Positions 35,979 through 63,283 of a DNA stretch of 64,000 nucleotides are shown one piece after another. The translations under genes were made by a program, and so were the position numbers. The stretch covers positions 62,001 to 126,000 of the forward strand of contig NZ_UNRA01000007.1 in the NCBI RefSeq assembly GCF_900537075.1, in the 5' to 3' direction. Source of the stretch: Tropicibacter sp. Alg240-R139. Lineage in GTDB: Bacteria > Pseudomonadota > Alphaproteobacteria > Rhodobacterales > Rhodobacteraceae. Under the pieces are notes generated by a model. It was not told the origin of the DNA. It searched no databases and saw only the letters and a list, made by a program, of their open reading frames with translations. How positions within the stretch are numbered: the stretch's first letter is position 1; each line of letters begins with the position of its first letter.

Positions 35979-36844
35979 TTTGCGGCTCCGTGGGTTAGAC
36001 GATTGCGCAGGACGCCAGACAGCTGGTCGACCAGAACGATTGTGACAAACAGCAGGATAAAAATCGCAGCGGCCTCGTCATACTTTCCCTGCCCCCAGGA
36101 CATTGAATTGCGCAGCTCATATCCGATGCCGCCTGCGCCAACAAAACCCAGGATCGCCGAGGCGCGGATGTTGATCTCGAACCGCAGCAGAGCGTAGCTG
36201 ACGTAATTCGGCCCCACCTGCGGTATCACGCCCAGATACATCCGCTGCGCCCAAGACGCGCCGACGGAGTGCAGCCCCTCGACAGGTTTGAGCGAGGCGT
36301 TTTCGTTCACCTCAGAGAACAGTTTACCCAGAGCACCCGCCGTGTGAATGGCAATGGCGATCATGGCAGGAACCGGTCCACCGCCCAGAACAAAGATTAG
36401 AACCAGCGCAATCACGATCTCGGGGACGGCACGGCAGATGTCGCTGATCCGGCGAAAGAGCGGGATCAGCGCAGGCCAAGGCGCCATGCCGCGCGTGGCC
36501 AGCAGTGACAGAAAGGTGCCGACAACCGCGCCAATCAGGGTCGAGGCGGCTGCGATGTTCAGTGTCTCGATCAAGGCGGGCATGAAATGCACCAGATGGG
36601 CGGGCAACAAAGCGACCTTTTCCCATGCCTCGCTAAGCACCTCGGTCGGGTAGTCTAGGATACGATGCCAGCCGTCTGTAAACGAGCCCGCATTGCGCGC
36701 GTCCGCAGTGCGGAAACCGGCCGCCATCAGGCTGACGAAGAGGATCAGGAGAATACCACCATAGACCCGTTTGCGCTGTACCTGCGCGGCGTAGTCGTCG
36801 CGAATTTCTGCGACCGAAGGGGACCCTGCACTCAGGTCTGTCAT
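35975..36844 (-). CDS. phnE: Phosphonate ABC transporter permease PhnE
   Basis: 289-aa inner-membrane permease. The N-terminal cytoplasmic tail is followed by a helix (VYGGILLILFVSLMAAGFR), then the core NIAAASTLIGAVVGTFLSLLATRG, ICRAVPEIVIALVLIFVLGGGPVPAMIAIAIHTAGALGKLFSEVNENASLKPVEGLHSVGASWAQRMYLGVIPQ and final helices ending in VLVDQLSGVLRNRL. It shares the coupling-loop pattern with the long PhnE next door, with which it should form the channel. It lies 65 bp after phnD. Confidence 0.94.
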   Translation of the reverse strand: MTDLSAGSPSVAEIRDDYAAQVQRKRVYGGILLILFVSLMAAGFRTADARNAGSFTDGWHRILDYPTEVLSEAWEKVALLPAHLVHFMPALIETLNIAAASTLIGAVVGTFLSLLATRGMAPWPALIPLFRRISDICRAVPEIVIALVLIFVLGGGPVPAMIAIAIHTAGALGKLFSEVNENASLKPVEGLHSVGASWAQRMYLGVIPQVGPNYVSYALLRFEINIRASAILGFVGAGGIGYELRNSMSWGQGKYDEAAAIFILLFVTIVLVDQLSGVLRNRLTHGAAK

Positions 36845-36909
36845 TGGAATGCTCCTGTCAAAAACGGGGCCCGGCGATTGTGCCGAGCCCCGAGAATTTG
36901 GCGCTGAAA

Positions 36910-37818
36910 TCAGTTGGACTTCAGTTTGCGCGCTTCGATGATGACTTCGTAAGCGTCATGGCCGATCGGCTGAACTCCCTTAGCTTCTCCCGACAGGACG
37001 CCGTAAGCGCAATCAGGGTCCATCGACGGCAGCGAGGCCATCAGAGCAGTGAACTTGACTTTGACGTCTTCGGGCAGCGCCTTGCGCAAAACAATCGGAC
37101 CCTCGGGGATCGGCTTGGACTGCCAGATCTTGACCAGATCGTTCATGTCGACCAGACCAGCATCAACCGCACGACGCAGTGCACCTGAGTTAAAGCCATC
37201 TTCCCATTCACCCAGGCCGTCGGCCCAGCTTACACCAGCGTCGATGTCGCCATTGTTGACGGCTACGATGGTTTGTTCGTGACCTCCGGTGAACTTAACT
37301 TCACCAAAGTAATCGCCCGAGGTCATGGTCGCGCCGGTCACTTCGGGGATCTCGATCGAGGGGATCAGGAAACCCGAGGTCGAGTTGGGATCACCAAAAC
37401 CAAAGGTTTTGTCCTTCAGGTCTTCGATCGAGGTGATGCCGCTGTCCTTGCGGGCAAAACCGATCGAGTAATAGCCGTAACCGCCGTCGTTGTTGACCTT
37501 GACCAGGATTGGTTCGACCGCTTCGGGGTCGGACAGATAGGTCTTGGCGTAGCCCGAAGCGCCCAACCAAGCCATATCGATGGTGCCGCCCAGCAGACCC
37601 TGGATCACGCCATTGTAGTCGGCAGGGGCAAACAACTTGGTTGGAACACCCAGCAGTTCCTCGGTCTTGGCGCGCAGGCATTCGTTATTGTTCAGACGAT
37701 CCTGAGCGTTTTCGCCACCCAGCAGGCCGATGCGAAACTCGCTGATAGTGTTGTCTTCAGCCAGGGCCGGTGCGGCCAGAGCTGTGGTTGCTATGAGAGC
37801 AGCGATCAGTTTTTTCAT
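36910..37818 (-). CDS. phnD: Phosphonate-binding periplasmic protein PhnD
   Basis: 302 aa from the ATG at 37818, chosen because it has a GGAGAA site and begins a standard signal peptide (KKLIAALIATTALAAPALA, cleavage near residue 21); the longer frame to 37992 is Pro/Arg-rich and overlaps phnC. Family landmarks are FRIGLLGGENAQDRLNNNECL, YNGVIQGLLGGTIDMAWLGASGYAK, FGFGDPNSTSGFLIPSIEI and VNNGDIDAGVSWADG. It captures phosphonates in the periplasm and delivers them to the two PhnE subunits. It lies 70 bp after phnC. Confidence 0.95.
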   Translation of the reverse strand: MKKLIAALIATTALAAPALAEDNTISEFRIGLLGGENAQDRLNNNECLRAKTEELLGVPTKLFAPADYNGVIQGLLGGTIDMAWLGASGYAKTYLSDPEAVEPILVKVNNDGGYGYYSIGFARKDSGITSIEDLKDKTFGFGDPNSTSGFLIPSIEIPEVTGATMTSGDYFGEVKFTGGHEQTIVAVNNGDIDAGVSWADGLGEWEDGFNSGALRRAVDAGLVDMNDLVKIWQSKPIPEGPIVLRKALPEDVKVKFTALMASLPSMDPDCAYGVLSGEAKGVQPIGHDAYEVIIEARKLKSN

Positions 37819-37888
37819 CTTGGGTTCTCCGGTTAAGTTTTCCCGACCCCCCATCGGGTCCGGGTGATGAAATGGATTTGGAGCGGCC

Positions 37889-38695
37889 TTAGACCGCTTC
37901 TTTGACTGGTCTGGGTTCGAGCGTTTCGATCTCGGTCGAGGTCGCGGCCTCGGAAAAATCGGCACCAGCGCCATAGATTTCGCGGGCAACACCCGTGGTC
38001 AGTTGTTCGGGCAGGCCGTCAAACACGATGCGTCCGTCGCGCATGCCAACGACGCGGTCGCAATAGCGGCGTGCAGTGTCCAACGTGTGCAAGTTGGCAA
38101 TCACTGTCCGGCCGTCCTCCTCGTGGATGCGGCGCAGGGCCTGCATCACGACCTGAGCGTTCATCGGATCGAGCGAGGCGATGGGTTCATCCGCCAGAAT
38201 GATCTTAGGGTCCTGCATCAAAGCGCGCGCGATGGCCACGCGCTGCTGCTGGCCACCCGACAGAGCCTCAGCCCGTTTGGGGGCGTGTTCGGCAATACCC
38301 AGACGATCAAGAATGTCGATGGCCTTGTGGATGTCGGCCATGGGAAAGAGGTTAAACATTGTCGATAGGGTCGAACGTCGGTTGAGCGTTCCGTGCAGCA
38401 CGTTCGAAACCACATCCAGACGCGGCACCAGATTGAACTGCTGAAAGATCATGGCGCACTCGGCCTGCCAGGCGCGCTTGTCGTTGCCCTTGAGAGCAGT
38501 CACGTCGCGCCCGTCAAAAGTAATCGAGCCTTCAGTGGCATCCTCAAGCTGGTTCAACATGCGCAGCAGGGTCGACTTGCCCGCCCCGGACCGTCCGATG
38601 ATCCCGATCATGCACGGCTTGTCCACTTCAAGCGTGGCCGCATCAACGGCAATGTTTTTGCCGAAACGCTTGGTGAGTTGTTTGATCCGCAGCAC
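37889..38695 (-). CDS. phnC: Phosphonate ABC transporter ATPase PhnC
   Basis: 268-aa ATPase that powers phosphonate import through the two PhnE permeases. Walker [10 protein letters not shown] (about 34-42), the Q-loop segment [23 protein letters not shown], signature [15 protein letters not shown] and Walker [13 protein letters not shown] are intact. It is the first gene of the phnCDEE-acyltransferase transcript; a Pho-box-like site lies about 66 bp upstream of the start. Confidence 0.95.
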
Positions 38696-49839: not shown

Positions 49840-51114
49840 TTAAACCAGTGATGCGGCTGCGACTTCATATGCCCGATGTGTTAGCTCAAAGTCGGCCTCG
49901 GTCAGGGCCAAAGACGGATAAGTCTTGCCTGATGCCTTGAAGATGCCCTCTTGCATCAGGACTGCGTTGAATGTGGCCGCTTTGGCTGAGTCCGAGTTGA
50001 ACACATCGCGATAGTCGCGTGGCTGGCTCTCGGCGAAGACGATCTCGAACAGCGTTGGATCACCCACGATCTGATGTGCGATTCCTCGAGCCGACAAGGC
50101 TGTACCCGCCATGTCCATCAGCCGCTGACCATTGGCGCGCAGTTGGTCATAGGCGCCATCACGGCGCAGCACCTCCATCGTTTTGAGACCCGCAACGGCC
50201 GCCACTGGGTTGCCTGACAGGGTGCCCAGTTGCATCAACCATTTGTCTGCCCCAACAGCCGCCTTGTCGAAATGCGCCATGATGTTGGCACGCCCTGCGA
50301 TCGCCGCCAGCGGGAAGCCGCCACCGATGACCTTGCCCAAAGTCGCCACATCGGGTGTGACCCCATAAAGCTCCTGCGCCCCGCCGTAAGAAAAACGGAA
50401 GCCTGTCACCACCTCGTCAAAGATCAGAACGATGCCGTATTTGTCGGCCTCTTCCCGCAGCAGCTGCAGGAAGCCGGGCATCGGCGGTATGATCCGTTGC
50501 AGTGGTTCGACAATGATTGCAGCCACCTGGTCCCCATGTTCGGCCAACAGCGAGCGGATGTAATCAGGGTCGTTAAAGGGTGCGATCAGCATTTCAGCCC
50601 GAACGCTTTCAGGGATACCCGCGCTATCCGGCACCGCCTGCGGAAAGTTGACCATGCGGGATGGCGCCAGCGACATCTGCGCCTCGGCGCTCATGCCGTG
50701 ATACCCACCCTCAAATTTCACGATCTTGTCGCGGCCCGTGAAGGCGCGGGCCAGGCGGATGGCATACATATCAGCCTCGCCCCCGGACGAAACATAGCGG
50801 ATCTGATCGGCACATGGCACCGCGCGGCAGATCTCTTCGGCCAATTCGACCCCTGCGGCGTTGTTGGCAAAAAACGTCATCCCCTTGGGGAGCTGTTCGA
50901 CGACTGCTTCGAGCACTTCGGGGTGGCCGTGGCCCAGCAGCATTGGACCAGAGCCGATCAGAAAGTCGACGTATTCCTTGCCGTTTTCATCCCAGACTCG
51001 GCTGCCTATACCGTCGCGAATGAACATAGTCGGGTCAAAGTTGCCAAATCCGCCGCCTGGAAGGACGGATTGGGCGCGCTCGAACCAATCGGCTTGTGAG
51101 AGGACTTTGTCCAT
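49840..51114 (-). CDS. Class III aminotransferase (glutamate-1-semialdehyde aminomutase-like)
   Basis: 424-aa PLP enzyme of fold type I. VLPGGGFGNFDPTMFIRDGIGSRVWDENGKEYVDFLIGSGPMLLGHGHPEV, the YVSSGGEADMYAIRLARAFTGRDKIVKFEGGYHG cofactor region, VLIFDEVVTGFRFSYGG and ATLGKVIGGGFPLAAIAG with the PLP-binding lysine are visible. It resembles HemL, but its place at the end of a catabolic operon, 64 bp after an enolase-superfamily gene, argues for a transaminase or aminomutase acting on that pathway's intermediate. True tetrapyrrole HemL is less likely. Confidence 0.85.
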   Translation of the reverse strand: MDKVLSQADWFERAQSVLPGGGFGNFDPTMFIRDGIGSRVWDENGKEYVDFLIGSGPMLLGHGHPEVLEAVVEQLPKGMTFFANNAAGVELAEEICRAVPCADQIRYVSSGGEADMYAIRLARAFTGRDKIVKFEGGYHGMSAEAQMSLAPSRMVNFPQAVPDSAGIPESVRAEMLIAPFNDPDYIRSLLAEHGDQVAAIIVEPLQRIIPPMPGFLQLLREEADKYGIVLIFDEVVTGFRFSYGGAQELYGVTPDVATLGKVIGGGFPLAAIAGRANIMAHFDKAAVGADKWLMQLGTLSGNPVAAVAGLKTMEVLRRDGAYDQLRANGQRLMDMAGTALSARGIAHQIVGDPTLFEIVFAESQPRDYRDVFNSDSAKAATFNAVLMQEGIFKASGKTYPSLALTEADFELTHRAYEVAAASLV

Positions 51115-51178
51115 TGCAGTGATCCTTTGCCGTAGGGGATTTCCTTGGGTGGATAAATTTTGACCAGAAAGTCAAAAA

Positions 51179-52282
51179 TCAGTCAAGAACGAGATCGGGC
51201 GGGCCGAGCACATTTTTGTCAGGTCGAATGCCAAGTCCCGGCCCGTCTGGCGGTGCAATCCGCCCCTGATTGCGTATCGGGCCATCAGGAGCGAGCCGTG
51301 GGGCGACGTAGCCTGACAGGTCGCAGACGTTCAAAACGCGTGCCGGATCGGTTGAGGCGCCCAGGTGTAATAGCGCTGCTGTGGTGATGTCCGAGCCCCA
51401 AGTGTCTTCGATGCACATCTTGGCCCCCAAATGCAGACACAGGTCGCGGGCGCGACAGGTGGCGGACAGCCCGCCGAATTTCGACAACTTTAGCGCCACG
51501 GCGTCCATGCATCCCTGGGCATGGCCTGCGAGCAGGCTAGCCGTGTCATGGGCGCTTTCATCGAGCTTCATCGGCAAGCCAGTTGCGGCGCGGACACGGG
51601 CGCAATCTTCGATGTTGGCGCAGGGTTGTTCCAGCATGATGTCCAGATCGGCCACGGCACGGCCAACGCGGGTGGCGTCGAGCGACGTGGCGCCGCAATT
51701 CCAGTCGCCATAGACCAGCGGTCCGTCTCCTACCGCGTCGCGTACTTTGCGCAAGCGGGCGACATCGGCCTGCCAATCGGCATCGGCACCAAGCTTGACT
51801 TGGAACTGGCGTATCCCTGTTTGATAGGCGGTCTGGGCAATACGGGCCATTTCATCCGGGGCGATGCAGGTGATCGAATGATAAAGTGGCATCGACTCGG
51901 CCCGGCGCCCGCCCAGAAGCGCATGCAGCGGCAGGTTCGCGGCCTGCCCGGTCAGATCCCACAGCGCGATATCCAGTGCGGACTTGGCATAGACGTGGCC
52001 CTGCAGATGTTTGTCGAGTTTGGCCATCAGCGCCTCAGGGCCAACCGGGTTCGCGCCGAGCAGCACCGGGGCCATCTCTTGCACAGCGGGCGCCACGCCT
52101 CGCGCGTAGGCAGGTAGGTAGTGGGGGATCGGGCAGACCTCTCCCCACCCGGTTAGGCCGGTGTCGGTTTCCAGCGCAACAACCACCGTCTCGACCGTGT
52201 CGCAGGATTTACCCTCGGCCATGTAGTAAGCGGTGTGACTGGTGAGCGGCACGTGCCACACAGAGATGCGCGTGAGTTTCAT
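51179..52282 (-). CDS. Enolase-superfamily racemase/dehydratase, paralogue 1
   Basis: 367-aa mandelate racemase/muconate lactonizing enzyme-type barrel. Metal ligands Asp193 (YGDWN), Glu218 (LEQPC) and Asp241 (MKLDES), and the paired lysines Lys163 (QVKLG) and Lys265 (ALKLSK), are all present, so two-base (epimerase, or syn/anti dehydratase) chemistry is possible. It resembles enzymes acting on hydroxyproline or its betaine (4-hydroxyproline betaine epimerase, cis-3-hydroxyproline dehydratase), but assignment needs assay. The start overlaps the next paralogue's stop by 4 bp. It is one of three such genes in a row. Confidence 0.85.
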   Translation of the reverse strand: MKLTRISVWHVPLTSHTAYYMAEGKSCDTVETVVVALETDTGLTGWGEVCPIPHYLPAYARGVAPAVQEMAPVLLGANPVGPEALMAKLDKHLQGHVYAKSALDIALWDLTGQAANLPLHALLGGRRAESMPLYHSITCIAPDEMARIAQTAYQTGIRQFQVKLGADADWQADVARLRKVRDAVGDGPLVYGDWNCGATSLDATRVGRAVADLDIMLEQPCANIEDCARVRAATGLPMKLDESAHDTASLLAGHAQGCMDAVALKLSKFGGLSATCRARDLCLHLGAKMCIEDTWGSDITTAALLHLGASTDPARVLNVCDLSGYVAPRLAPDGPIRNQGRIAPPDGPGLGIRPDKNVLGPPDLVLD

Positions 52283-53388
52283 GGGGTGTAGACCGCGACC
52301 GGATCGCTCAGGGCGTCTTCGTCCGGATGAACGCCAAGGCCAGGGGCTTCGGGTAAGTGCAAATGTCCGTCGATGTTGCGGGGGCCACGGCCACTGGCAA
52401 TGTCCACGGTGAGCATATCCTGACAGGCCCAGACCGCGTGGCAGTTGGCGTCGGGGATGGTAGCGGCCAAATGCAGCGCCTCGGTATCGGCCAGAACCGA
52501 ACCACCGGTGGCCATGACGAACATGTCGATGCCGTGCGCAAGGGCAATGTCGCGCATACGGGCAGCTTTGGTCAGGCCGCCGACACGGTTGAGTTTGATG
52601 CCAAAGACTTCGGCCAAACCATCGCGGGCGATGCGCGCGGCGTCTTGCAGGGTAACGAGGCTTTCGTCGACACTGACCGGGGCTGAATGCAACGGGCGGA
52701 TGGCGGCGATGTCGTCGAGGGTTTCACCGGGTTGCTCGAACATCACATGCAAATCTTCGGTCGCACGCATCACGCGCAGAGCTTGCTGCCGGGTCCAGCC
52801 TCGGTTCACGTCATAGAGCACGACCTCGCCAGGGCGGCGGATGTCTTCCATGTCGCGGACGCGTTCGATGTCGCGTTCCACGTCGCCGCCTATCTTGACC
52901 GAATGAGCGACATAGCCGCGCTGGCGGTAGCGGTCGACAACGGCGCGGGTTTCCTGCGCCGTCTTGGCCCCAACAGACGATGCAATTGGGCGTGGAGTGC
53001 GCGAGCCACCGCCCATCAGATCCGCAATCGGCTGGCCCGCCGCCTGCCCCGCGATGTCCCAGCAGGCCATGTCGATGGGGGACTTGGCATAAAGGTGTCC
53101 CGGCAACGCCAGATCCATCGCGCGTTCGACATCCAGCACCCGGCGCGGATCGAGCCCGAGGATGAAGGGTGCCATGGTTTCGATCCCAGCGCGGATGCCG
53201 GGACCATGTGCGGGAACGTAGGTGTGCCCCCAGGGTGTTCCCTCGCCCCAGCCAATCAGACCTTCGTCCGTTTCAAGCTTGACGAGCGTTGCATCCAAAA
53301 CTTCGAACTTGAGCCGCCCGCCTGAGAGCCAATAAGGATGCTCGAGCGGCAAATCGACGTGATAGACCGTGATGCGGGTGATTTTCAT
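52279..53388 (-). CDS. Enolase-superfamily racemase/dehydratase, paralogue 2
   Basis: 369-aa barrel enzyme of the same group. Catalytic set: Lys165 (HSVKIGG), Asp193 (YDVNRG), Glu218 (FEQPG), Asp241 (VSVDES), Lys265 (GIKLNRVGG). The HSVKIG strand is the closest of the three to what I recall of the Pelagibaca 4-hydroxyproline betaine 2-epimerase (HpbD), a Rhodobacterales enzyme from a betaine-degradation cluster. This supports an epimerase acting on a cyclic amino acid or betaine. Overlaps paralogue 1 downstream and the small cupin upstream by 4 bp each. Confidence 0.86.
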   Translation of the reverse strand: MKITRITVYHVDLPLEHPYWLSGGRLKFEVLDATLVKLETDEGLIGWGEGTPWGHTYVPAHGPGIRAGIETMAPFILGLDPRRVLDVERAMDLALPGHLYAKSPIDMACWDIAGQAAGQPIADLMGGGSRTPRPIASSVGAKTAQETRAVVDRYRQRGYVAHSVKIGGDVERDIERVRDMEDIRRPGEVVLYDVNRGWTRQQALRVMRATEDLHVMFEQPGETLDDIAAIRPLHSAPVSVDESLVTLQDAARIARDGLAEVFGIKLNRVGGLTKAARMRDIALAHGIDMFVMATGGSVLADTEALHLAATIPDANCHAVWACQDMLTVDIASGRGPRNIDGHLHLPEAPGLGVHPDEDALSDPVAVYTP

Positions 53389-53669
53389 TTCAATTCCACT
53401 TCAACAAAGCTCATCGGCTGATCCGAGGCGTTGATGACATTGTGTTCGACACCTTCGTCGCGTCGATATGAGGTGCCTGCAGGGACAGTAACTTCGTTTG
53501 TCGTGCCGTCGGGCAGTTCCAGCCGCATGTGACAGTCGGTGACAGCGGTGATGACGTAATCCATGGCATGGCGGTGCCAGCCGGTTTCTGCGCCGGGCGC
53601 GAAATCGAACCGAGTGACCCGAACCCGGTTGTCGTCGATCATCTGTGTGGCTTTGGCTTGCTCTGTCAT
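53385..53669 (-). CDS. Small single-domain cupin
   Basis: 94-aa cupin barrel. The metal-binding pattern is visible as GWHRHAMDY (His32, His34) and GVEHNVIN (His76), with the usual VPAGTSYRRDEG turn between. There is no signal peptide. Function is unknown; single-domain cupins can be isomerases, lyases or binding proteins. It is wedged between two enolase-superfamily genes with 4-bp overlaps on both sides, so it must act in the same pathway. It is distinct from the larger DddQ-like cupin two genes upstream. Confidence 0.8.
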   Translation of the reverse strand: MTEQAKATQMIDDNRVRVTRFDFAPGAETGWHRHAMDYVITAVTDCHMRLELPDGTTNEVTVPAGTSYRRDEGVEHNVINASDQPMSFVEVELK

Positions 53670-54772
53670 TGGACAAACTCCTCTACCGGGGTGCCGAGAC
53701 TATCGAAATCAACGGCAACACCAAGCCCCGGCGTGTTTGTGGCGTACAGCTTGCCGTCGCGTGCCTCTGGCCCGCCGATGCCGGTTGATCGGGTGTTGTA
53801 GTTCATCAGATCGGTGGTGTTGTGCAGATACTCGGTCGGCGTGGTGGCCGCGAAATGTGCAAGAGCAGCGCTGGTAATCTCTCCGCCCCAAGTGTCTTCG
53901 GCCACAACCGGAATTCGGTTCTCGACAAGGTAATCGCGCACACGGCGGGCTTTGGACAACCCACCAAGGTTTGAGATCTTGAGACACACAAGCTCTGCCG
54001 CACGATCCGCCACGATCTGCTGCGCCACAGCCATGCCGGTCACGCATTCATCCAGCTTCATCGGCAGGTCGGTCTGGGCGCGCACCTGGAGGCATTCAGC
54101 GTAGGTGCGGCAGGGTTGTTCCAGGATGTAATCCAAGTCATGCGTGGCTCGGGCCACGCGTATCGCATTATCAACGCGCCAGCCCTGATTGGCATCGGCC
54201 ATCGCCTTTTCACCCGGTTTCAACAGTGGCACGGTCGCACGGATACGGTCGATGTCGGCGGCCCAATCGCCGCCCACTTTGATCTGAAACTGGCGATACC
54301 CTTGGGCGCGATAGCCCTCCATCTCGGCGATGGTCTCGTTGGTGCCTTTCTGCGGGGCCACACGGTACATCGGCGCGCCATCGGTCAGCTTGCCACCCCA
54401 GACCGCCCAAAGCGGCGCGCTCAGGGATTGTGCCAGAATGTCCCAACAGGCCGCGTCAAAAGGTGCTTTGGCATAGCCGTGCCCCTGCACCAGATGATCC
54501 ATGACCTGCTCTATCCGGGCCACGTTGCAAGGGTCCTCGCCCAGCAGATGCGGCGCGACCAGTCGGGAAAGCGCGGGCACCCCTTCGGAGTGCGCAACCA
54601 TATAGTTCTCGCCACAAGGTGTGAACTCACCACAGCCTTGCAACCCCGCATCTGTGTCGATCACAACGACCGACGCGCGTGCGGACTTGATCGCATTGCC
54701 CGCGCCCCAGACGTAAGCCCCGCCTACGTAAGGAAGGTCCATCTGAAAGATGCGGATGCGGGTAATTTTCAT
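53666..54772 (-). CDS. Enolase-superfamily racemase/dehydratase, paralogue 3
   Basis: 368 aa from the ATG at 54772, which overlaps the preceding stop; an in-frame ATG at 54817 lies inside the neighbouring gene and is rejected. Catalytic set: Lys165 (QIKVGGD), Asp193 (MADANQG), Glu218 (LEQPC), Asp241 (MKLDEC), Lys265 (CLKISNLGG), at the same positions as in paralogue 2. The N-terminal capping domain ([20 protein letters not shown]), which determines substrate, differs clearly from the other two, so the three paralogues probably act on different stereoisomers or intermediates. Confidence 0.86.
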
Positions 54773-55347
54773 GCGGCGTCCATCTTCGGCAGATCGGCCA
54801 TGCCTGCCCCGCGCCAAAGCACGAAGGTCAGGATGGGGTGGCCGTTGGTCACCATGGCGTGGCTTTGCCAGCTGGTGTGTGCACGGGTTTGGCCTGCTTG
54901 GAAGCTGGCCTCATCCTCATCCGCGTAGAATGTCGCCTCGCCGGCGATGCTGAGGTAGAGTTCCTCAGCCTCGTGGCTGTGCCAGTCATAGCTCAGCCGC
55001 TCGCCCCAATAGCCGATGTAGCCGCGCAACTGGGTTGAGTGGAAATGACCCGTGGGGCCGAAGAGCTCGAAATAGCCATAACGGTTGCGGAAATCGGTGC
55101 CGACTTCTTCCTCGGTGTAGGTGCGTTTCCAGCTTGCCAGATGCGTGGCCGCCTTGACCGCCTGAACCAAGGCGTCCGTCTGAGGGGTTCCCGGTAGGGC
55201 CAAGTTCGCCACAAGGTCGGTGGCGGGGACAGCGCGCGGTTGCAAGCCGGATGGGGTTAGATCATCTGGCCAGGGGGCGAACCCGTTCAGATCGGGGTGA
55301 AGGTTGTGCAATTGCCGGGCGGCTTCGAGGACTGCGTCGAGGGTCAT
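54769..55347 (-). CDS. dddQ: DddQ-type DMSP lyase cupin
   Basis: 192-aa cupin of the DMSP-lyase family. DddQ splits dimethylsulfoniopropionate into dimethyl sulfide and acrylate. Every functional position I recall from the Ruegeria lacuscaerulensis enzyme is present with the same number: Tyr120, His123, His125, Glu129, Tyr131, His163 and Trp178 (segments [22 protein letters not shown]). There is no signal peptide. Overlaps the MDR dehydrogenase and an enolase-superfamily gene by 4 bp each. Members of this cupin family can have other, unknown main activities, and the operon has no acrylate-handling gene. DMSP lyase activity is therefore likely but may not be the physiological role. Confidence 0.82.
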
Positions 55348-56426
55348 GGGATCACTACGATGTTTCCGGTGTGGGCTTTGTCGATAAAGGCCTGCTGGGC
55401 CTCTCGTAGCTGATTAAGCGGATAGGTCGCGGCCAAAGCTGGCTTGATCTTGCCATCCTCTATGTATTTCGCGACATCAGTGAAGTTTTCGGGCCGGTTC
55501 ACGGTCGAGCCCACAAAGGTCAGATCACGCAGGTAGAACGTACGCAGGTCAAGCTCGACCATGGGGCCAGCGATCGCGCCCGAACAGGTATAGCGCCCGC
55601 CGCGTTCAAGGATGTCGATCAGTTTGGGCCAGTTGTCGCCCCCGACCACATCTGCAACCACCGTGACCTTCTCACCTTTGAGCGCCTTGCGCAGGTTTTC
55701 GGGGCTCCGCGGGAGGATCACGTCCGGACCCAACTCGGCGACCTCGGAATGTTTGGCCTCAGACGCCATTGCGATGGCACGCGCGCCGCGCAATTTGGCC
55801 AGCTGGATTAGCGCGCCGCCCACGCCGCCGGATGCCCCCGGGATCAGCACCGTGTCTCCTGCCCCGACATTGGCGCGGTCCATCATGCCTTCGGCGGTGA
55901 CATAGGAGCAGGCGAATGTCGCCAACTCGGCGTCGCTGAGGTCACAGTCGATAGGGGCAATGCCACGCACGTCGGCTTTGGTGTATTCGGCATAACCACC
56001 GTCGCATTCAGAGCCGAAGTAGCCTGCCTTATCGCGGTTCATCGGTTCGTCCCAATCCCGCAACCAGCCTGCGACCATGACGCGTTTGCCAATGAGGTCC
56101 GGATCAGCGCCCTCGCCGACCGCCACAACCTCGCCGACTGCATCCGCGCCTTGGATGCGGGGAAAGGTAAGCGGCGCGCCGCCCCAAGTGCTGTCCTCGT
56201 CGTCGACTTCGCCATAGGAGCTGCCGGTTGTGGCCTCGTCCACCGCCTTGGAGTACCAACCCGTGCGGGTATTCACGTCGGTGTTGTTGAGACCGCAGGC
56301 GCCGACCTTGATCACCACCTCCATCGGCCCGGCCTGGGGCGTGGGCCAATCCTCGTGCCACTCGTACTTGTCCAGATCGCCGTGGCCGGTCAGAACCATG
56401 GCCTTCATCGTTGCGGGAATGGTCAT
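55344..56426 (-). CDS. MDR-superfamily zinc-type dehydrogenase
   Basis: 360 aa from the ATG at 56426, chosen for its AAAGGA site; the longer frame to 56498 runs through a repeat. Medium-chain dehydrogenase/reductase: GroES-like N-terminal half ([42 protein letters not shown]) and an NAD(P)-binding half with [19 protein letters not shown]. The family's structural-zinc cysteine cluster is missing; CGLNNTD replaces the catalytic CGxCHTD, so it may be a zinc-free quinone-oxidoreductase-like or enoyl reductase type. It is not a clear AcuI. Second gene of the operon. Confidence 0.83.
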
Positions 56427-56450
56427 GTAAGGTTTCCTTTCAAGGTGAGA

Positions 56451-56500
56451 GGGGGCGCTGCCCCCCGCCTTCGGCTCCCTCCGCCGTATTTGGAACAAAA
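56451..56500 (-). repeat. GC-rich hairpin element between DMGDH-like and MDR genes
   Basis: GGGGGC (56451-56456), GCT, GCCCCC (56460-56465) form a stem. It is followed on the + strand by a CCTCCGCCG stretch and an A-rich run with AAAAAGAAGAG. The layout matches the element right after the ABC operon at 16278-16345. In the operon's reading direction it lies just before the dehydrogenase's ribosome site and could tune expression or mRNA stability. Confidence 0.5.
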
Positions 56501-56513
56501 AGAAGAGCTTTGG

Positions 56514-58967
56514 TCATTCTGCGGCCGCCTTGGTGGCGTCGGTGCGGGGCAGCAGGCTTTGCGGGTCGTAGGCCGGTTCGCCCAGGATGCGGCCCTTGCG
56601 GGGGTTGCCTGCGATGATAACCTCGACCTCGGTGCCGGGTTGGTTGGCGTGGGGTTTGATGTAGGCGAAGGCCAGGATCTTACCGACCGTGTGGCCATAA
56701 GCCACCGACGCGGTCGAGCCGACCACCTGACCGTTCAGCATTACGGCCTCACCGCCATGGCCGTCTTCGACGCCGTCGGGTTCAATCTCGAGATAGGCGC
56801 AGACCCAAGGCAGATCGGTGTTGAGCGTCTTGTCCTTGCCCAGATAGTCCTTGTTCTGGCGCGCAAAGCGCAGCACGTCGGCCTCGGCCAAGGTGACCTC
56901 ATTGGTCAATTCGCCAGCCCCCTTGAACCCCTTCTCCATCCGCAGGGCGTTCATCGCGAAGGACCCGTAGTCGGTTATGCCATGCGCCTCGCCAGTGGCC
57001 CAAAGCGCATCGTAGACGGCCAGTGTGCTGTCGCGGGGGATGTGCAGTTCCCACCCCAGCTCACCCGCATAAGACATACGGAAGGCCCAAATTTTGTGAC
57101 CTGCGACCTCAATTTCCTGCGCGGTGAGCCATTTGAACCCGGCGTTCGTCAGGTCTGCATCGGTGCAGGCGGCCAGCACGTCGCGGGCGGCGGGGCCGTT
57201 GAGTGACAGGGCAGCCCAATCGTTGGAGCGCAGGATGATCTCGGCATTTTCTCCGTCACGCTGCTGTTCCAAATGATCCAGCAGGCGCTGTTCAAAGAAG
57301 GCGGCGCAGACGAGGTAGTACCGCCCCTTGTCCAGCTTCACGACTGTGGTTTCCAGCTCGATCCGACCCCGGCGGTTGAGCATGTGGGTCAGTGCAATCC
57401 CCCCCACCTTTTGCGGCAGGCGGTTGGCTGTCAGCCGGTCGAGCAATGCTTCGGCGTCCGGGCCCGCAACTTCGACCTTGGTAAAGGCCGAGATGTCCAT
57501 GATGCCCACCGCCTCGCGCACGGCCTTGCATTCGCTTGCGACGATGTTGTGCACGTCGTTACGCTTGAACGAGTAGTGGTCGCGCTGCTCCACGCCATCC
57601 CGCGCAAACCAGCGGGGGCGTTCGTGGCCAAAGACCTCTTCGTAGACCGCGCCCTTGTCCTTGAGCCGCTCATACAGCGGCGAGGGCTTGATCGGTCGCC
57701 CTGCAAGTCGGTTGAAATGCGGGAATGGGATTTCGTGGCGCAGGCAGTAATCTTCCTTGGCCTTGGTGACCTGCCAATCCTTGTTGGCATAGTTGCCAAA
57801 GCGGCGAGGATCATATTCGCGTATAGATATGTCGGCAGAGCCGTGCACCATCCAGCGCGCCAACTCGCGCGTCAGGCCGGGGCCCCAGCCGATGCCGATC
57901 TGTGTACCACAGCAGCACCAATAGTTGCGCACGCCTGGCGCAGGACCAATCAGCGGGTTTCCATCCGGCGGGTGCGAGATGGCGCCGTGCACGTCGCGGG
58001 AAATCCCCAGCTCGGCAAAGATCGGCATGCGGTTCAGGCTTTCCTCGAGCCAGGGCATGACGCGGTCATAGTCGGCATCGAAAAGCCAGTTCTCGTAATC
58101 CCACGGGCATTCATCCAGCCAGACTGCGTTGGGATTGGCCTTTTCATAGATGCCGATCAGGCCGCGCTTCTGCTCCATCCGGATGTAACCCGAAACCTTT
58201 TTGTCGTCGCGGATGACGGGGAGTTCCTTGTCCAGCCCCGCGAACTCGGGCACCGGGTCGGTGACGAAATAATGGTGCGTCATCGAGGTCATGGGCAATT
58301 GCAGGCCGGACCATTCGCCCATCTGGCGGGCATAGGTGCCGCCCGCATTCACCACATGCTCGCAGGTGATGGTGCCCTGTTCGCTTTCAACCATCCATTC
58401 GCCCGAGTTAGCCTGGGTGATGTTGGTGGCGCGGCAGCGGCGGATGATCTTGACGCCCAGCGCACGTGCACCTGCTGCCATGGCCATTGTCACATTGGTC
58501 GGGTCAACGTGTCCGTCATCCGGCGTGTGCAGCGCGCCCAGAACACCGTCGAGGTTGTAGAACGGATGCAGCTCGGCTACCTTCTCCGGCCCAACAAGTT
58601 CGATGTTGAACCCCAGCGACCGCCCCACGGACAGGGTGTGGCGGAGCCAGTCCATCTCGTCTTCGGTATAGGCCAGCCGGAACGACCCGCAGCCGTGCCA
58701 TGTCACCGCCTGCCCGGTCTCGGCCTCCAACGCGCCGGAATAGAGCCCGATGTTGTAGTCCACGCATTTGCCCAGCCCGAACGAACTGGTTGAATGGGTG
58801 ATCTGCCCTGCTGCGTGCCAGGTCGAGCCGGACGTGAGCTCGCCCTTTTCCAGCAAGACGACATCGCTCCAGCCTTCGTGCGCCAGGTGATAGGCAAGAC
58901 CCACCCCCATGACACCGCCGCCTACGATGACAACTCGGGCATGCGACGGCAGTTTATTCTCGGACAT
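56514..58967 (-). CDS. DMGDH/sarcosine dehydrogenase-like FAD oxidoreductase with GcvT domains
   Basis: 817-aa flavoprotein with the same plan as the one at 5271-7673. FAD fold RVVIVGGGVMGVGLAYHLA, the STWHAAGQ segment with the covalent-FAD type His51, PDGNPLIGPAPGVRNYWCCCG, and GcvT-like folate domains in the C-terminal half (ALLDRLTANRLPQKVGGIALTHMLN through MRMEKGFKGAGELTNEVTLAEA). It should oxidise an N-methyl (or sulfonium/imino) compound and pass formaldehyde-level carbon to tetrahydrofolate. First gene of an eight-gene operon, divergent from the RpiR regulator with a 68-bp shared promoter. Confidence 0.88.
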   Translation of the reverse strand: MSENKLPSHARVVIVGGGVMGVGLAYHLAHEGWSDVVLLEKGELTSGSTWHAAGQITHSTSSFGLGKCVDYNIGLYSGALEAETGQAVTWHGCGSFRLAYTEDEMDWLRHTLSVGRSLGFNIELVGPEKVAELHPFYNLDGVLGALHTPDDGHVDPTNVTMAMAAGARALGVKIIRRCRATNITQANSGEWMVESEQGTITCEHVVNAGGTYARQMGEWSGLQLPMTSMTHHYFVTDPVPEFAGLDKELPVIRDDKKVSGYIRMEQKRGLIGIYEKANPNAVWLDECPWDYENWLFDADYDRVMPWLEESLNRMPIFAELGISRDVHGAISHPPDGNPLIGPAPGVRNYWCCCGTQIGIGWGPGLTRELARWMVHGSADISIREYDPRRFGNYANKDWQVTKAKEDYCLRHEIPFPHFNRLAGRPIKPSPLYERLKDKGAVYEEVFGHERPRWFARDGVEQRDHYSFKRNDVHNIVASECKAVREAVGIMDISAFTKVEVAGPDAEALLDRLTANRLPQKVGGIALTHMLNRRGRIELETTVVKLDKGRYYLVCAAFFEQRLLDHLEQQRDGENAEIILRSNDWAALSLNGPAARDVLAACTDADLTNAGFKWLTAQEIEVAGHKIWAFRMSYAGELGWELHIPRDSTLAVYDALWATGEAHGITDYGSFAMNALRMEKGFKGAGELTNEVTLAEADVLRFARQNKDYLGKDKTLNTDLPWVCAYLEIEPDGVEDGHGGEAVMLNGQVVGSTASVAYGHTVGKILAFAYIKPHANQPGTEVEVIIAGNPRKGRILGEPAYDPQSLLPRTDATKAAAE

Positions 58968-59015
58968 GATTTTTCCACTTCATGCATCACGATTCTGCTC
59001 GACAGGCTAATTCCA

Positions 59016-59051
59016 CATTTGTACCATCGTCAATCATGAATGAAACAAATG
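59016..59051. promoter_or_regulatory. Inverted repeat over the RpiR start codon
   Basis: CATTTGT (59016-59022) and ACAAATG (59045-59051) form perfect 7-bp arms spanning the regulator's ATG, in the 68-bp divergent promoter. A near direct repeat (TGTACCATCGTCAATC and TGTATCATCAATC) also covers it. It could be the autoregulatory RpiR operator. Confidence 0.35.
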
Positions 59052-59923
59052 TATCATCAATCGTTCTCGACCGCCTGACCAAGGAATGGGACGCCTTGAC
59101 GCCTGAGGCGCAGAAAGCCGCGCGTTACGTGCTGGAAAACCCCACAGATGTGGGGGTTTCGACCGTGCGCGAGATTGCCGAGGCCGCCAATGTGAAGCCA
59201 AACACCTTTGTGCGGATGGCCCGGCAGGTGGGCTTTGATGGGTACGAGGATTTCCGCGCGCCCTTCCGCGATGCGATCAGGCGGGGGGCTGTATCCTTTC
59301 CTGATCGCGCCCGCTGGTTGCAGGACATTGGCAAGTCGGGCGAACTGGGCGGGCTGTATGCCGACATGGTTGGCGCTGCAATCAGAAACATCGAAGAGAC
59401 CTTTGGCGGTATCAGCCCTGAATCGCTGCAAGCCGCAGCGACAGACATATGGAATTCACGGCAAGTTTTCACATTGGGCGTCGGCGTCAACAATTCAAAC
59501 GCGCGCAATTTCACCTATCTTGCCTCGACCGGCATGAAGCAGTTTCACGCGATCCCGCGACCAGGGTCCACCGCAATTGATGATCTGGCGTGGGCCGACG
59601 AGCAGGACGTATTAATCGCCATAACCTGCCATCCCTATCGCACCGAGGTAATCGAGGCGATCAAACTGGCGCGCGAGCAAGGCATGACCGTCGTGGGGCT
59701 GTCGGACAGCCCGGCAAGCCCGGTGATCCTGAACGCCAATCACGGCTTTGTTGTCGCCGCCGATACCCCGCAATTCTTCCCCTCGTCCGTGTCGACCATC
59801 GCTTTGCTGGAAACCCTGCTGTCCTTTGTCGTGGCCGTTTCCAGTGACGAGATTGTCGAACGGGTCGAGCGGTTTCATCGTCGTCGCCATCAATTGGGCC
59901 TATATGCGGAGGAGCCTGAATGA
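59036..59923 (+). CDS. RpiR/MurR-family transcriptional regulator
   Basis: 295 aa from the ATG at 59036 (a frame from 58982 would enter the promoter). N-terminal helix-turn-helix of the RpiR type: EWDALTPEAQKAARYVLENPTDVGVSTVREIAEAANVKPNTFVRMARQVGFDGYEDFRAPFRDA (about 14-80). C-terminal SIS sugar/ligand-binding domain (about 125-265; VFTLGVGVNNSNARNF, ITCHPYRTEVIEAIKLAREQGMTVVGLSDS). Divergent from the DMGDH-like operon and overlapping the Rieske gene by 4 bp, so it should control both arms. The ligand is probably a pathway substrate. Confidence 0.88.
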   Translation: MNETNVSSIVLDRLTKEWDALTPEAQKAARYVLENPTDVGVSTVREIAEAANVKPNTFVRMARQVGFDGYEDFRAPFRDAIRRGAVSFPDRARWLQDIGKSGELGGLYADMVGAAIRNIEETFGGISPESLQAAATDIWNSRQVFTLGVGVNNSNARNFTYLASTGMKQFHAIPRPGSTAIDDLAWADEQDVLIAITCHPYRTEVIEAIKLAREQGMTVVGLSDSPASPVILNANHGFVVAADTPQFFPSSVSTIALLETLLSFVVAVSSDEIVERVERFHRRRHQLGLYAEEPE

Positions 59924-61011
59924 ACGCACCCCTGACGCAGTCTCTGGACGCGCGCTATTATACCGATCCTGCGATTTTCGAGCAGGAACTGCGGGGTCTG
60001 TTGGCCCGGACATGGCAGTTCGCGGGCCACATCGCGCAGGTGCGCGAGATCGGGGACTACTTTGCTTTTGAAATCGCGGATGAAAGCCTGTTCTGTATCC
60101 GGGGGCGTGATGGCGAAATCCGCACCTTCTATAACGTGTGCCAGCATCGTGCCCATGAAATGGTCACGGGTGCGGGAAACACGCGCGTCGTGGTCTGTCC
60201 CTATCACTCGTGGACCTACGAGCTGTCGGGCGAGCTGCGCGCAGGGCCCAACATCAAGTCGGTACCGGGATTTGACCGCTCGGCCATCTGTCTGACATCG
60301 GTGCGCACCGAAGTGTTCAACGGCTTCATCTTCGTTAATCTCGATGACGAGGCCACGCCGATGGACGACTGGTATCCCGGCGTGCGCGAGGAAATCCGCG
60401 CCTATGTGCCCCACATCGACGCGCTGGAACCGCTGGAATGGGTCGAGGTGCCTGAAAACTGCAATTGGAAAGTCAGCATCGAGAACTATTCAGAATGCTA
60501 TCACTGTCCCACCAACCACCCCACCTTTGCCGAAGGCGTGGTCAAGCCCGAGACCTATGACATCAAGCCCGACGAGGGCGGCGGCTATGTTCTGCGTCAC
60601 ACGACCGAGTGTCAGAGCCTCGACAGGATGACCTATCCCATCGACATGTCCGTGCCCCATGCCGGTGACTATCAGTCCTGGTTCCTTTGGCCGATGTTCT
60701 CCTTCCAGTGTTACCCGGGCAATGTTCTCAACACCTATCACTGGCGCGCCGAGGGCACGGATCACTGCGCCGTCTGGCGTGGCTGGTACACCGAGGGCGG
60801 ATCGGAAAGCGCTGTTATCCGACAACTTGCGGTTCAAGATCGTGAGACGACTGTGGAAGAAGACATTCACCTTGTGGAATCGGTCTATCGCGGCCTTAAA
60901 TCGCGGGGCTACAGACCTGGACCGCTGGTCCTGGACCCATCCGGCGGGGTGATGTCCGAGCATTCCATTGCCAGGTTGCAACAATGGATGCGCGAGGCCG
61001 TTGATCTGTAA
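59920..61011 (+). CDS. Rieske oxygenase alpha subunit, onium N-demethylase type
   Basis: 363-aa Rieske non-haem iron oxygenase. The [2Fe-2S] ligands are Cys74-x-His76 (VCQHRAHEM) and Cys93-x2-His96 (CPYHSWTY). The mononuclear iron site is ENYSECYHCPTNH, with His195 and His200. The bridging position is Glu192, not the usual Asp, as reported for carnitine monooxygenase CntA. Related enzymes demethylate glycine betaine, stachydrine or carnitine, releasing formaldehyde. The reductase subunit is not in the window. Coupled to rpiR (4-bp overlap) and followed by a GFA gene. Confidence 0.88.
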   Translation: MNAPLTQSLDARYYTDPAIFEQELRGLLARTWQFAGHIAQVREIGDYFAFEIADESLFCIRGRDGEIRTFYNVCQHRAHEMVTGAGNTRVVVCPYHSWTYELSGELRAGPNIKSVPGFDRSAICLTSVRTEVFNGFIFVNLDDEATPMDDWYPGVREEIRAYVPHIDALEPLEWVEVPENCNWKVSIENYSECYHCPTNHPTFAEGVVKPETYDIKPDEGGGYVLRHTTECQSLDRMTYPIDMSVPHAGDYQSWFLWPMFSFQCYPGNVLNTYHWRAEGTDHCAVWRGWYTEGGSESAVIRQLAVQDRETTVEEDIHLVESVYRGLKSRGYRPGPLVLDPSGGVMSEHSIARLQQWMREAVDL

Positions 61012-61036
61012 CAAGGCGTGTGCATGGAGGTGACAT

Positions 61037-61459
61037 GTGACCAATCTATCGGGGAAATGCATGTGTGGCGCGGTTACTTGGTCGTCCGCCGGACCTGTGA
61101 CTAGGCGCCTGTCGTGTCATTGCGACGATTGTCAAAAAGCCACGTCATCGCCTTTTACCACATTTGTCGGACTAGCACCCGACACCGTCACCTGGACCGG
61201 CGATATCAACCACTTCGAAAGCTCGCCGGATTCCCATCGTGGGTTCTGCCCCGAATGCGGCACGCGGCTCTATTTCCGGTCCGCCAAGTGGCCGGGTGAA
61301 ATCCACATCCACGCCGCGACCCTGAATGAGCAAGCAGACTATGCCCCAGACGCGCATGTGAAACTGGAAGATGGCGTTGCATGGCTGCGCCTGTCCGATG
61401 ACATCCCAAAACACCAAAGCTTTCAGGCTACACCCAAAACCGGGCTGTCTGAGGGCTGA
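61037..61459 (+). CDS. GFA-family zinc protein
   Basis: 140-aa glutathione-dependent formaldehyde-activating-like (GFA/CENP-V) protein. GTG start with a strong GGAGG 7 nt before. Zinc-binding cysteines: Cys8 and Cys10 (GKCMCGAVTW), Cys27, Cys29 and Cys32 (CHCDDCQK), Cys71 and Cys74 (CPECG). Most family members have no proven activity. Beside an N-demethylase that would release formaldehyde, capture of formaldehyde as a glutathione adduct is an attractive but unproven role. 25 bp after the Rieske gene. Confidence 0.87.
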   Translation: MTNLSGKCMCGAVTWSSAGPVTRRLSCHCDDCQKATSSPFTTFVGLAPDTVTWTGDINHFESSPDSHRGFCPECGTRLYFRSAKWPGEIHIHAATLNEQADYAPDAHVKLEDGVAWLRLSDDIPKHQSFQATPKTGLSEG

Positions 61460-61489
61460 CCAACAGCAAAGACCGATACGGAGACTTAC

Positions 61490-61882
61490 ATGGCCGATTT
61501 GTTCAACGAAGACCTGTTCCTCAAGGGCCTGGAACAGCGCAAAGACACCTTGGGTGCAGAATACGTCGAAAAGAACCTGGCCGCAGCAGATGAATTCACC
61601 CGCCCCTTTCAAGAAGCGATGACGGCCTGGTGCTGGGGCTTTGGTTGGGGTGATGACGTGATCGAACCCAAGACACGCTCTATGATGAATCTGGCCATGA
61701 TCGGTGCATTGGGCAAGATGCACGAGTGGGAGATCCACTGCCGCGGCGCGCTGAACAACGGTGTCAGCAAAGAGGAAGTTCGCGCCATAATCCACGTAAT
61801 CGGCATCTACTGCGGGGTTCCGCAGTCATTAGAGTGCTTCCGCGTGGCCCGCAAAGTGCTGGAAGAGGCCGGGCAGCTTTGA
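61490..61882 (+). CDS. Carboxymuconolactone decarboxylase-family protein
   Basis: 130-aa all-helical protein of the CMD/AhpD-like family. Core: FTRPFQEAMTAWCWGFGWGDDVIEPKTRSMMNLAMIGALGKMHEWEIHCRGALNNGVSKEEVRAIIHVIGIYCGVP. The E-x2-H-x3-A-x2-NG helix pattern of gamma-carboxymuconolactone decarboxylases is kept and the AhpD CxxC is absent, so peroxidase activity is unlikely. Last gene of the rpiR-Rieske-GFA unit; a strong terminator follows. The substrate is unknown. Confidence 0.85.
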   Translation: MADLFNEDLFLKGLEQRKDTLGAEYVEKNLAAADEFTRPFQEAMTAWCWGFGWGDDVIEPKTRSMMNLAMIGALGKMHEWEIHCRGALNNGVSKEEVRAIIHVIGIYCGVPQSLECFRVARKVLEEAGQL

Positions 61883-62080: not shown

Positions 62081-63283
62081 ATGGACGCCTTCATCTGCGA
62101 CGCACAGCGCACCCCAATTGGACGATACGGCGGAGCCCTGTCCGGGGTCCGGACGGACGACCTTGCTGCGCTGCCAATTGCCGCCCTGATGGAACGCAAC
62201 CCCGATGTAAACTGGTCCAACGTCGATGATGTGATCATTGGCGATGCCAACCAAGCGGGTGAAAGCAACCGCAACGTGGCGCGGATGGCCGGACTGTTGG
62301 CTGGGCTGCCAACCGACGTTCCGGGTACAACCGTAAATCGCCTGTGTGCCAGCGGCATGGACGCCGTTGGAATGGCTTCACGCGGGATCAAGGCCGGTGA
62401 CTATGACTTGGTTATCGCCGGTGGCGTCGAAAGCATGAGCCGCGCGCCCTTTGTGATGCCCAAGGCCACCAGCGCCTTCAGCCGCGCCAACACCGTCTAT
62501 GACACCACCATTGGCTGGCGTTTCGTGAACAAGAAGATGCACGAAATGTACGGCACCGATACTATGCCTCAGACCGCTGATAACGTGGCCGAGGATTACG
62601 GCGTAAACCGTGCTGATCAGGACGCCTTTGCGGCGCGCAGTCAGGCCCGGTGGGCCGCTGCGCATGAAGCCGGGATTTTCAAAGACGAAATCACGACAGT
62701 CACCATCCCGCAGCGCAAAGGCGATCCGATCATATTCGACGCGGACGAGCACCCGCGCCCCAGTTCAACCGCCGAAAAGCTCTCGGGTCTCAAGGGCATC
62801 AACGGTCCGGGCAAGACGGTCACCGCAGGCAACGCGTCAGGCGTCAACGACGGGGCGGCGGCGATCCTGATGGCGAACGAGGCTGCAACTGCCAAGAATA
62901 ACCTCACGCCGATGGCGCGCGTTGTGGGCATGTCCGTGGCGGGCGTTGCCCCTCGCATCATGGGCATCGGTCCGGTTCCTGCCTGCCGCAAGGTGCTGGC
63001 ACGTGCGGGGCTCACCATCGAGCAGATGGATGTGATAGAATTGAACGAAGCCTTTGCCAGCCAGGGTCTTGCCACCCTGCGAGAGCTTGGCGTGGCCGAT
63101 GATGCACCCCATGTTAACCCCAACGGTGGTGCTATCTCTATCGGTCACCCGCTGGGTATGTCGGGCGCACGTCTGGTATTGACCGCGGCCTATCAATTGC
63201 AACGCACCGGTGGGCGCTATGCGCTGTGCACCATGTGTGTTGGCGTCGGTCAGGGCGCAGCCCTGATCCTGGAACGAGTGTAA
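62081..63283 (+). CDS. 3-oxoadipyl-CoA thiolase
   Basis: 400-aa thiolase cleaving 3-oxoadipyl-CoA to succinyl-CoA and acetyl-CoA, the last step of the phenylacetyl-CoA and protocatechuate routes (PaaJ/PcaF). Nucleophile Cys89 ([12 protein letters not shown]), His356 ([11 protein letters not shown]) and Cys386 ([11 protein letters not shown]); [33 protein letters not shown] is the diagnostic N-terminus. It lies 13 bp before paaA in the same direction, so the phenylacetate role is favoured over the protocatechuate one. Confidence 0.92.

Follow-up and report, generated by a model that had tools for sequence, protein, structure and literature searches.

A recurrent and modular gene cluster with a DddQ-type cupin in Rhodobacteraceae, predicted to degrade a quaternary-ammonium compound

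The window analysed here, a 64,000-nucleotide stretch of the Tropicibacter sp. Alg240-R139 genome (contig NZ_UNRA01000007.1, positions 62,001 to 126,000), carries at its positions 49840-61882 a cluster of 12 genes, in which a cupin of the dimethylsulfoniopropionate (DMSP) lyase type, DddQ, lies among genes of a putative onium catabolic pathway. Eight genes on the reverse strand (AT3, EN_A, EN_B, CupS, EN_C, DddQ, MDR, and DMGDH) are divergent from four on the forward strand (RpiR, Rieske, GFA, and CMD). All 12 open reading frames (ORFs) are intact, without internal stops, and Pfam confirmed the family of each protein:

49840..51114, reverse strand: AT3, class III (HemL-like) pyridoxal-phosphate aminotransferase, core; Pfam Aminotran_3
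51179..52282, reverse strand: EN_A, enolase-superfamily enzyme, core; MR_MLE, own clade
52279..53388, reverse strand: EN_B, enolase-superfamily enzyme, accessory; MR_MLE, 92% identity to PDB 3EEZ
53385..53669, reverse strand: CupS, small single-domain cupin, accessory; Pfam Cupin_2
53666..54772, reverse strand: EN_C, enolase-superfamily enzyme, accessory; MR_MLE, clade of PDB 2RDX
54769..55347, reverse strand: DddQ (CupQ, P0005), DMSP-lyase-type cupin, accessory; Pfam DMSP_lyase, match to 4LA2
55344..56426, reverse strand: MDR oxidoreductase, accessory; ADH domains
56514..58967, reverse strand: DMGDH-like flavin adenine dinucleotide (FAD)/folate enzyme, putative N-demethylating dehydrogenase, core; Pfam DAO+FAO_M+GCV_T+GCV_T_C
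58982..59923, forward strand: RpiR-family regulator; HTH_6+SIS
59920..61011, forward strand: Rieske oxygenase of the quaternary-ammonium group Va type; Rieske+Ring_hydroxyl_A, CntA match, Tyr203/Glu205
61037..61459, forward strand: GFA-family protein, optional; Pfam GFA
61490..61882, forward strand: CMD, carboxymuconolactone-decarboxylase-family protein, frequent partner; Pfam CMD

The layout proposed in the initial annotation, with eight reverse genes facing an RpiR-Rieske-GFA-CMD unit, holds with its coordinates; the starts of EN_C (54772, ATG) and MDR (56426) were corrected and the longer TTG-initiated ORFs discarded. Six gene pairs share exact 4-bp overlaps with ATG starts, five of them within the reverse set (EN_A/EN_B, EN_B/CupS, CupS/EN_C, EN_C/DddQ, and DddQ/MDR) and the sixth being RpiR/Rieske. 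The intergenic gaps are 64 bp between AT3 and EN_A, 87 bp between MDR and DMGDH, and 14 bp between the divergent DMGDH and RpiR.

The cluster recurs in Rhodobacteraceae. EN_A is present in 57 of 394 family genomes and EN_B in 35 of 295; a class-wide draw of 385 genomes yielded EN_B in ten and EN_A in eight, in both cases with the genome of the window and a second family member among them. Among the 80 loci with record titles that were fetched through EN_B, 65 contain RpiR, Rieske, DMGDH, and EN_B together, so that the gene grouping is not due to chance; 63 of the 65 possess EN_A too, and 59 the aminotransferase as well. As for the other 15, contig ends lie near the cluster in L016, L028, L033, L038, L048, L054, L059, L070, L071, and L082, frames are broken up in L046 and L080, and Rieske, DMGDH, and EN_A are truly missing in L018, L055, and L081.

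Pooled EN_A and EN_B searches gave 109 non-identical loci with DMGDH, of which 16 were dropped and 93 are complete. The counts below are conditional on this selection, i.e., on loci found via EN_B or EN_A and retained with DMGDH, Rieske, and an aminotransferase in view. RpiR occurs in all 93 complete clusters, EN_A in 90, AT3 in 84, and CMD in 61; in the nine clusters without AT3 another class III enzyme (AT_alt) replaces it. Every complete cluster encodes at least one enolase. Far more variable are MDR (72), EN_B or its sister clade (70, at a 42% threshold), the DddQ-type cupin (46), EN_C (38), and CupS (25), and further genes are found in part of the clusters (AMDase-like protein in 30, aldehyde dehydrogenase, ALDH, in 25, GFA in 19, and BCCT in three). 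The core thus consists of RpiR, Rieske, the DMGDH-like enzyme, an enolase (nearly always EN_A), a class III aminotransferase, and often CMD, while MDR, DddQ, EN_C, CupS, and EN_B form a variable insert, with the DddQ block optional at the locus. The insert is entirely absent from 15 clusters, although "minimal" describes the locus here, since a DddQ-type gene is present elsewhere in no fewer than three of the 15 genomes (L055, L151, and L158).

In the three genomes of L018, L055, and L081, which have a dddQ locus devoid of Rieske, DMGDH, and EN_A, these three genes are found together elsewhere, and simple co-loss was consequently rejected. One of the relocated sets has MDR in between; two (L120 and L121) carry AT_alt and their own RpiR, while no RpiR or aminotransferase is seen in the third (L122). 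The second loci may represent separately acquired clusters rather than a plain split. In all three genomes EN_A travels with Rieske and DMGDH.

Two further variants were seen among the relatives. L100 (1118-12830) is an expanded cluster that combines six enolase paralogs with genes for a DddQ-type cupin, an MDR, and a sulfotransferase-like protein; immediately upstream of it lies L123, a divergent Rieske/DMGDH set that includes BCCT, and FrhB-like and DsbA-like genes are inserted in that Rieske/DMGDH/BCCT cluster (L123 11149-13091), with FrhB homologs also in L021 and L153. The AMDase-like genes lie near the Rieske gene, often as tandem copies; the one in L074 (2638-3468) barely qualifies as a member of the arylmalonate decarboxylase family (26.1 bits against a cut-off of 25.9), and similar genes account for the 30 clusters mentioned above.

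The Rieske oxygenase is most informative about the type of substrate. Its best PDB match is CntA (200 bits), followed by 3VCA (121 bits), which we take to be Stc2. According to the CntA paper, group V Rieske oxygenases mainly use quaternary ammonium substrates; an aromatic residue at position 203 characterizes group Va (carnitine, choline, and benzalkonium), whereas Asn203 characterizes group Vb (glycine betaine and proline betaine), including Stc2 and GbcA (PMC7948474). Tyr203 and Glu205 are present in the window protein and in 100 of 100 orthologs (at least 60% identity, not de-duplicated), and the enzyme, judged by its aromatic residue at 203 and its Glu205 bridge, carries the group Va quaternary-ammonium signature and not that of the glycine/proline-betaine group. 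It shares with CntA the cation-pi residue Tyr203, the Glu205 bridge, and His208/His213, but the six other pocket residues of CntA (Tyr225, Phe258, Asn270, Tyr295, Tyr315, and Phe319) are replaced by T/Y/Q/R/D/T, invariant in 100 of 100 orthologs, and none of the 12 genes encodes a CntB-type reductase. Position 295 is R in the window protein but W in the phmmer alignment. Seven rows of cluster-linked proteins (40-53% identity), which represent five distinct loci (L094 repeats L114, and L099 repeats L119), retain Tyr203, Glu205, and the pocket, with position 225 as the exception (N or S). The eighth row, from a second Rieske gene adjoining the cluster in L024 (33% identity), differs.

The DMGDH-like protein scores 539 bits against the mitochondrial DMGDH (5L46), and its domain architecture (DAO+FAO_M+GCV_T+GCV_T_C) is the complete one of the dimethylglycine dehydrogenase family. 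Succession of a Rieske oxygenase and a DMGDH-type enzyme resembles the glycine betaine-dimethylglycine-sarcosine route (GbcA, DMGDH), but the window Rieske reaches 157 bits, over residues 7-206, on the GbcA model (NF058607, cut-off 670), and the window cluster adds an enolase and an aminotransferase. The stepwise N-demethylation first proposed for the cluster is plausible from the DMGDH-like enzyme; the share of the Rieske enzyme in it fared less well, since the CntA paper assigns oxidative demethylation to group Vb and places the oxygenases of carnitine, choline, and benzalkonium in Va (PMC7948474). GFA, also named as a pointer to demethylation, is a weak argument given its occurrence in 19 of the 93 complete clusters. 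AT3 falls below both hemL cut-offs (358 of 527 bits for TIGR00713, and 387 of 398), and CMD below that of the PcaC model TIGR02425 (113.5 against 155.7 bits).

All three enolase-superfamily proteins, EN_A, EN_B, and EN_C, keep the two catalytic lysines and the three metal ligands, and they fall into separate clades (support of 100/100, 100/100, and 95/98, respectively). The structure 3EEZ, identical to EN_B at 92% of positions, is named "putative" in the PDB, 2RDX falls in the EN_C clade, and 2QDD belongs to the sister clade of EN_B, which replaces EN_B in some clusters. The likeness to hydroxyproline dehydratase and betaine epimerase that had been noticed earlier extends to the enolase family with its catalytic lysines and metal ligands, and to identities of 37-43% to the cis-3-hydroxyproline dehydratase 4MGG and of 28-37% to 4E8G, presumably the betaine epimerase HpbD. 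It does not reach the equivalog level: on the cis-3-hydroxyproline dehydratase model (cut-off 500) EN_A scores 341, EN_B 314, and EN_C 391, while the control 4MGG scores 720.

The cupin, initially described as DddQ-like, is a DddQ-type protein by every sequence test applied. It is 68% identical over its full length of 192 amino acids to the crystallized DddQ (4LA2), and the six catalytic residues (Y120, H123, H125, E129, Y131, and H163) are present; they are complete in 47 of 48 CupQ rows and 17 of 18 CupQ2 rows. The roseobacter dddQ locus was reportedly described by Todd et al. in 2011 (R. pomeroyi SPO1593-SPO1596, and R. nubinhibens dddQ1/dddQ2). Those six residues are reported to be essential in the part of the DddQ study available (PMC4437653). 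Likewise, PMC3338564 describes an MDR028 gene linked to R. pomeroyi dddQ as well as to R. nubinhibens dddQ1/dddQ2, and the window MDR-DddQ pair matches by position the MDR beside dddQ (SPO1593/ISM_14095). With a DddQ-type cupin, the cluster would therefore be the roseobacter dddQ neighborhood. The two have the cupin and its catalytic residues in common; however, the literature passages, from whose text the R. pomeroyi locus is known here, give a DMSP lyase gene and MDR alone, with no demethylation core or modularity. In an open-access library that lacks most subscription papers, searches covering the gene set, the dddQ locus, homarine, the enolases, and DddQ found no description of the pathway or of a demethylation core around dddQ. 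The nature of the cupin, together with the recurrence and modularity of the cluster, goes beyond the initial annotation.

Association between DddQ and the cluster is strong but not exclusive. The 295 family genomes hold 47 DddQ-type matches, 22 of which lie within 12 kb of an EN_A or EN_B match (4 of 4 at no less than 60% identity, and 9 of 14 at no less than 45%), so that a DddQ confined to the cluster was rejected. A DddQ-type gene is found in 24 of 48 cluster carriers and in 16 of 247 other genomes, a comparison (Fisher test) that ignores phylogeny and assumes the 394-genome draw to include the 295. Ten of the DddQ places outside the cluster were viewed and comprise two with an MDR-DddQ pair (L152 and L158) and two with transporter genes that by eye look TRAP-type (L151 and L158). 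Across 27 loci from Ruegeria, EN_B shares 86-91% identity with that of the window, and DddQ is 59-68% identical in the 25 with the window DddQ type; judged by these identities, DddQ diverges much faster than its neighbor.

Genes beside the cluster in relatives also bear on onium compounds. BCCT genes, identified by Pfam at two of four loci and by similarity at the others, adjoin it in L088 (truncated at the contig edge), L120, L123, and L134. L120 further encodes a ferredoxin reductase most similar to HcaD, and a regulator resembling GbdR; each scores under its cut-off and has a relative in L121. MttB adjoins the core in L129. Positions 1-19425 of L103 hold two MttB genes, flavin mononucleotide (FMN) oxidoreductases, and a binding-protein transporter alongside a DddQ-like cupin and two enolases, possibly a form of the pathway that does without Rieske. 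A compact distant version is found in L119, with an aminotransferase, an enolase, and Rieske facing DMGDH, ALDH, and CMD; its enolase is of the EN_B sister type, and EN_A is absent from the locus.

The cluster is probably an operon for the catabolism of a small zwitterion, a quaternary-ammonium compound bearing a carboxylate and a trimethylammonium group. The onium nature of the pathway, which the initial annotation had proposed, is well supported by the Va signature of the Rieske enzyme, the DMGDH-type enzyme, BCCT beside four relatives, and MttB beside two. As a best guess, the substrate is a small acid with the trimethylammonium on its terminal carbon; the link of class III aminotransferases with a non-CoA aldehyde dehydrogenase makes a terminal CH2 the most likely position of the amine. 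For the reaction steps we infer the following order. A betaine-type transporter would take up the compound (BCCT adjoins the cluster in some relatives), and the Rieske oxygenase would attack the trimethylammonium group, either by demethylation or by CntA-type C-N oxidation. The DMGDH-like enzyme might then strip N-methyl groups onto folate, EN_A might act on the carbon adjoining the carboxylate by epimerization or beta-elimination, and the class III aminotransferase would take off the freed primary amine, leaving the non-CoA aldehyde dehydrogenase linked in relatives to yield the acid. The insert (MDR, DddQ, EN_C, CupS, and EN_B) probably broadens the substrate range, for instance to stereoisomers, beta-substituted variants, or DMSP itself.

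Several observations weigh against this assignment. RpiR regulators are more typical of sugar phosphates, neither a transporter nor a Rieske reductase is found among the 12 genes, and no enolase reaches the cut-off of any characterized family tested. EN_A itself is not in its usual form in three of the 93 clusters (L104, L112, and L108, where it is in pieces). BCCT is linked in four loci only and scores 435 against a betaine equivalog cut-off of 650. Demethylation by the window Rieske would go against precedent, as the known Va enzymes mostly oxidize elsewhere; were it to cleave a C-N bond instead, DMGDH and the aminotransferase would need other roles. Finally, DMSP cleavage by DddQ is real in vivo, since dddQ mutants lose DMS according to the passages seen of a 2017 review (97% of production in R. 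pomeroyi, and 20% in R. nubinhibens; PMC5395565).

This last point, the DMSP induction of dddQ noted in the same passages, and the intact catalytic residues would suit a sulfonium operon, with DddQ as the DMSP-cleaving enzyme and the remaining genes serving in the processing or detoxification of acrylate and of related sulfonium compounds. Such an operon is nevertheless quite improbable: a DddQ-type cupin is lacking in 47 of the 93 complete clusters, and 15 contain nothing of the insert, with the reservation made above for the three genomes that possess DddQ elsewhere. The MDR as an acryloyl-CoA reductase (AcuI) was rejected, as it scores 35 bits on the AcuI model NF051456 (cut-off 440) and, in the passage seen, its R. 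nubinhibens counterpart beside dddQ did not restore acrylate tolerance (PMC3338564). The induction of dddQ by DMSP is 1-4 fold (PMC4437653) and the Km of DddQ 22 mM (PMC5395565), as given in the parts of these papers available.

Carnitine or gamma-butyrobetaine offers a place for every enzyme class (dehydration by the enolase, reduction by MDR, demethylation by Rieske and DMGDH, and conversion to succinate by the aminotransferase and ALDH), and both CntA as the nearest solved Rieske structure and BCCT in relatives agree with it. We regard it as unlikely, in view of the six replaced and fixed pocket residues and the absence of MDR from 21 of the 93 clusters; moreover, carnitine has no chiral alpha carbon, which leaves several enolases unexplained. 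Proline betaine or hydroxyproline betaine, with EN_A-C as betaine epimerases or dehydratases as in the HpbD pathway, was suggested by the enolase identities to 4MGG and 4E8G. As the leading substrate it was rejected on the Rieske group, Tyr203 standing against Asn203 of Stc2 and GbcA; the enolase scores are all under 500, and a class III aminotransferase is not a known part of the proline-betaine route, which together make this substrate very improbable.

A more specific form of the quaternary-ammonium assignment, a doubtful one, is that DddQ is primarily an enzyme of this pathway, for which DMSP lysis is a side or secondary reaction. Branched beta-ammonio acids with a backbone like that of DMSP, X+-CH2-CH(R)-COO-, would be its natural substrates; general chemistry suggests, for example, the hydroxymethyl-trimethyl-beta-alanine head group of DGTA, a betaine lipid of algae. 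The cupins and several enolases would then handle one alpha proton, and the aminotransferase would receive the remaining beta-amino acid.

Read by eye, the cluster is flanked by beta-oxidation genes at one end and by a paa-like cluster at the other. A thiolase gene (62081-63283) opens the latter, followed by genes reading as a phenylacetate (paaABCDE-like) cluster that continues beyond the window (L089), adjoining but separate; CMD and the thiolase as a beta-ketoadipate unit were rejected on this ground. The paa-like cluster includes a PaaE-like reductase (L089 5996-7069). At 35975-38695 of the window, again by eye, an ABC transporter with a phosphonate-type binding protein is found beside a ribulose-phosphate-epimerase-like gene.

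The cluster joins three PDB enolase structures with putative names (3EEZ, 2RDX, and 2QDD) in one candidate pathway and suggests that marine Rhodobacteraceae consume a methylated nitrogen compound. The dddQ gene is usually counted as one for the climate-active gas dimethyl sulfide (DMS) and serves to mark DMS release by bacteria. The main implication of its position is that DddQ may be an accessory of an N-onium operon; as a variable insert of a recurrent operon of this kind, dddQ would have a second, testable role, which may explain the poor affinity of the enzyme for DMSP. If the beta-ammonio proposal is true, metagenomic dddQ counts would partly measure algal betaine-lipid turnover and not DMS production.

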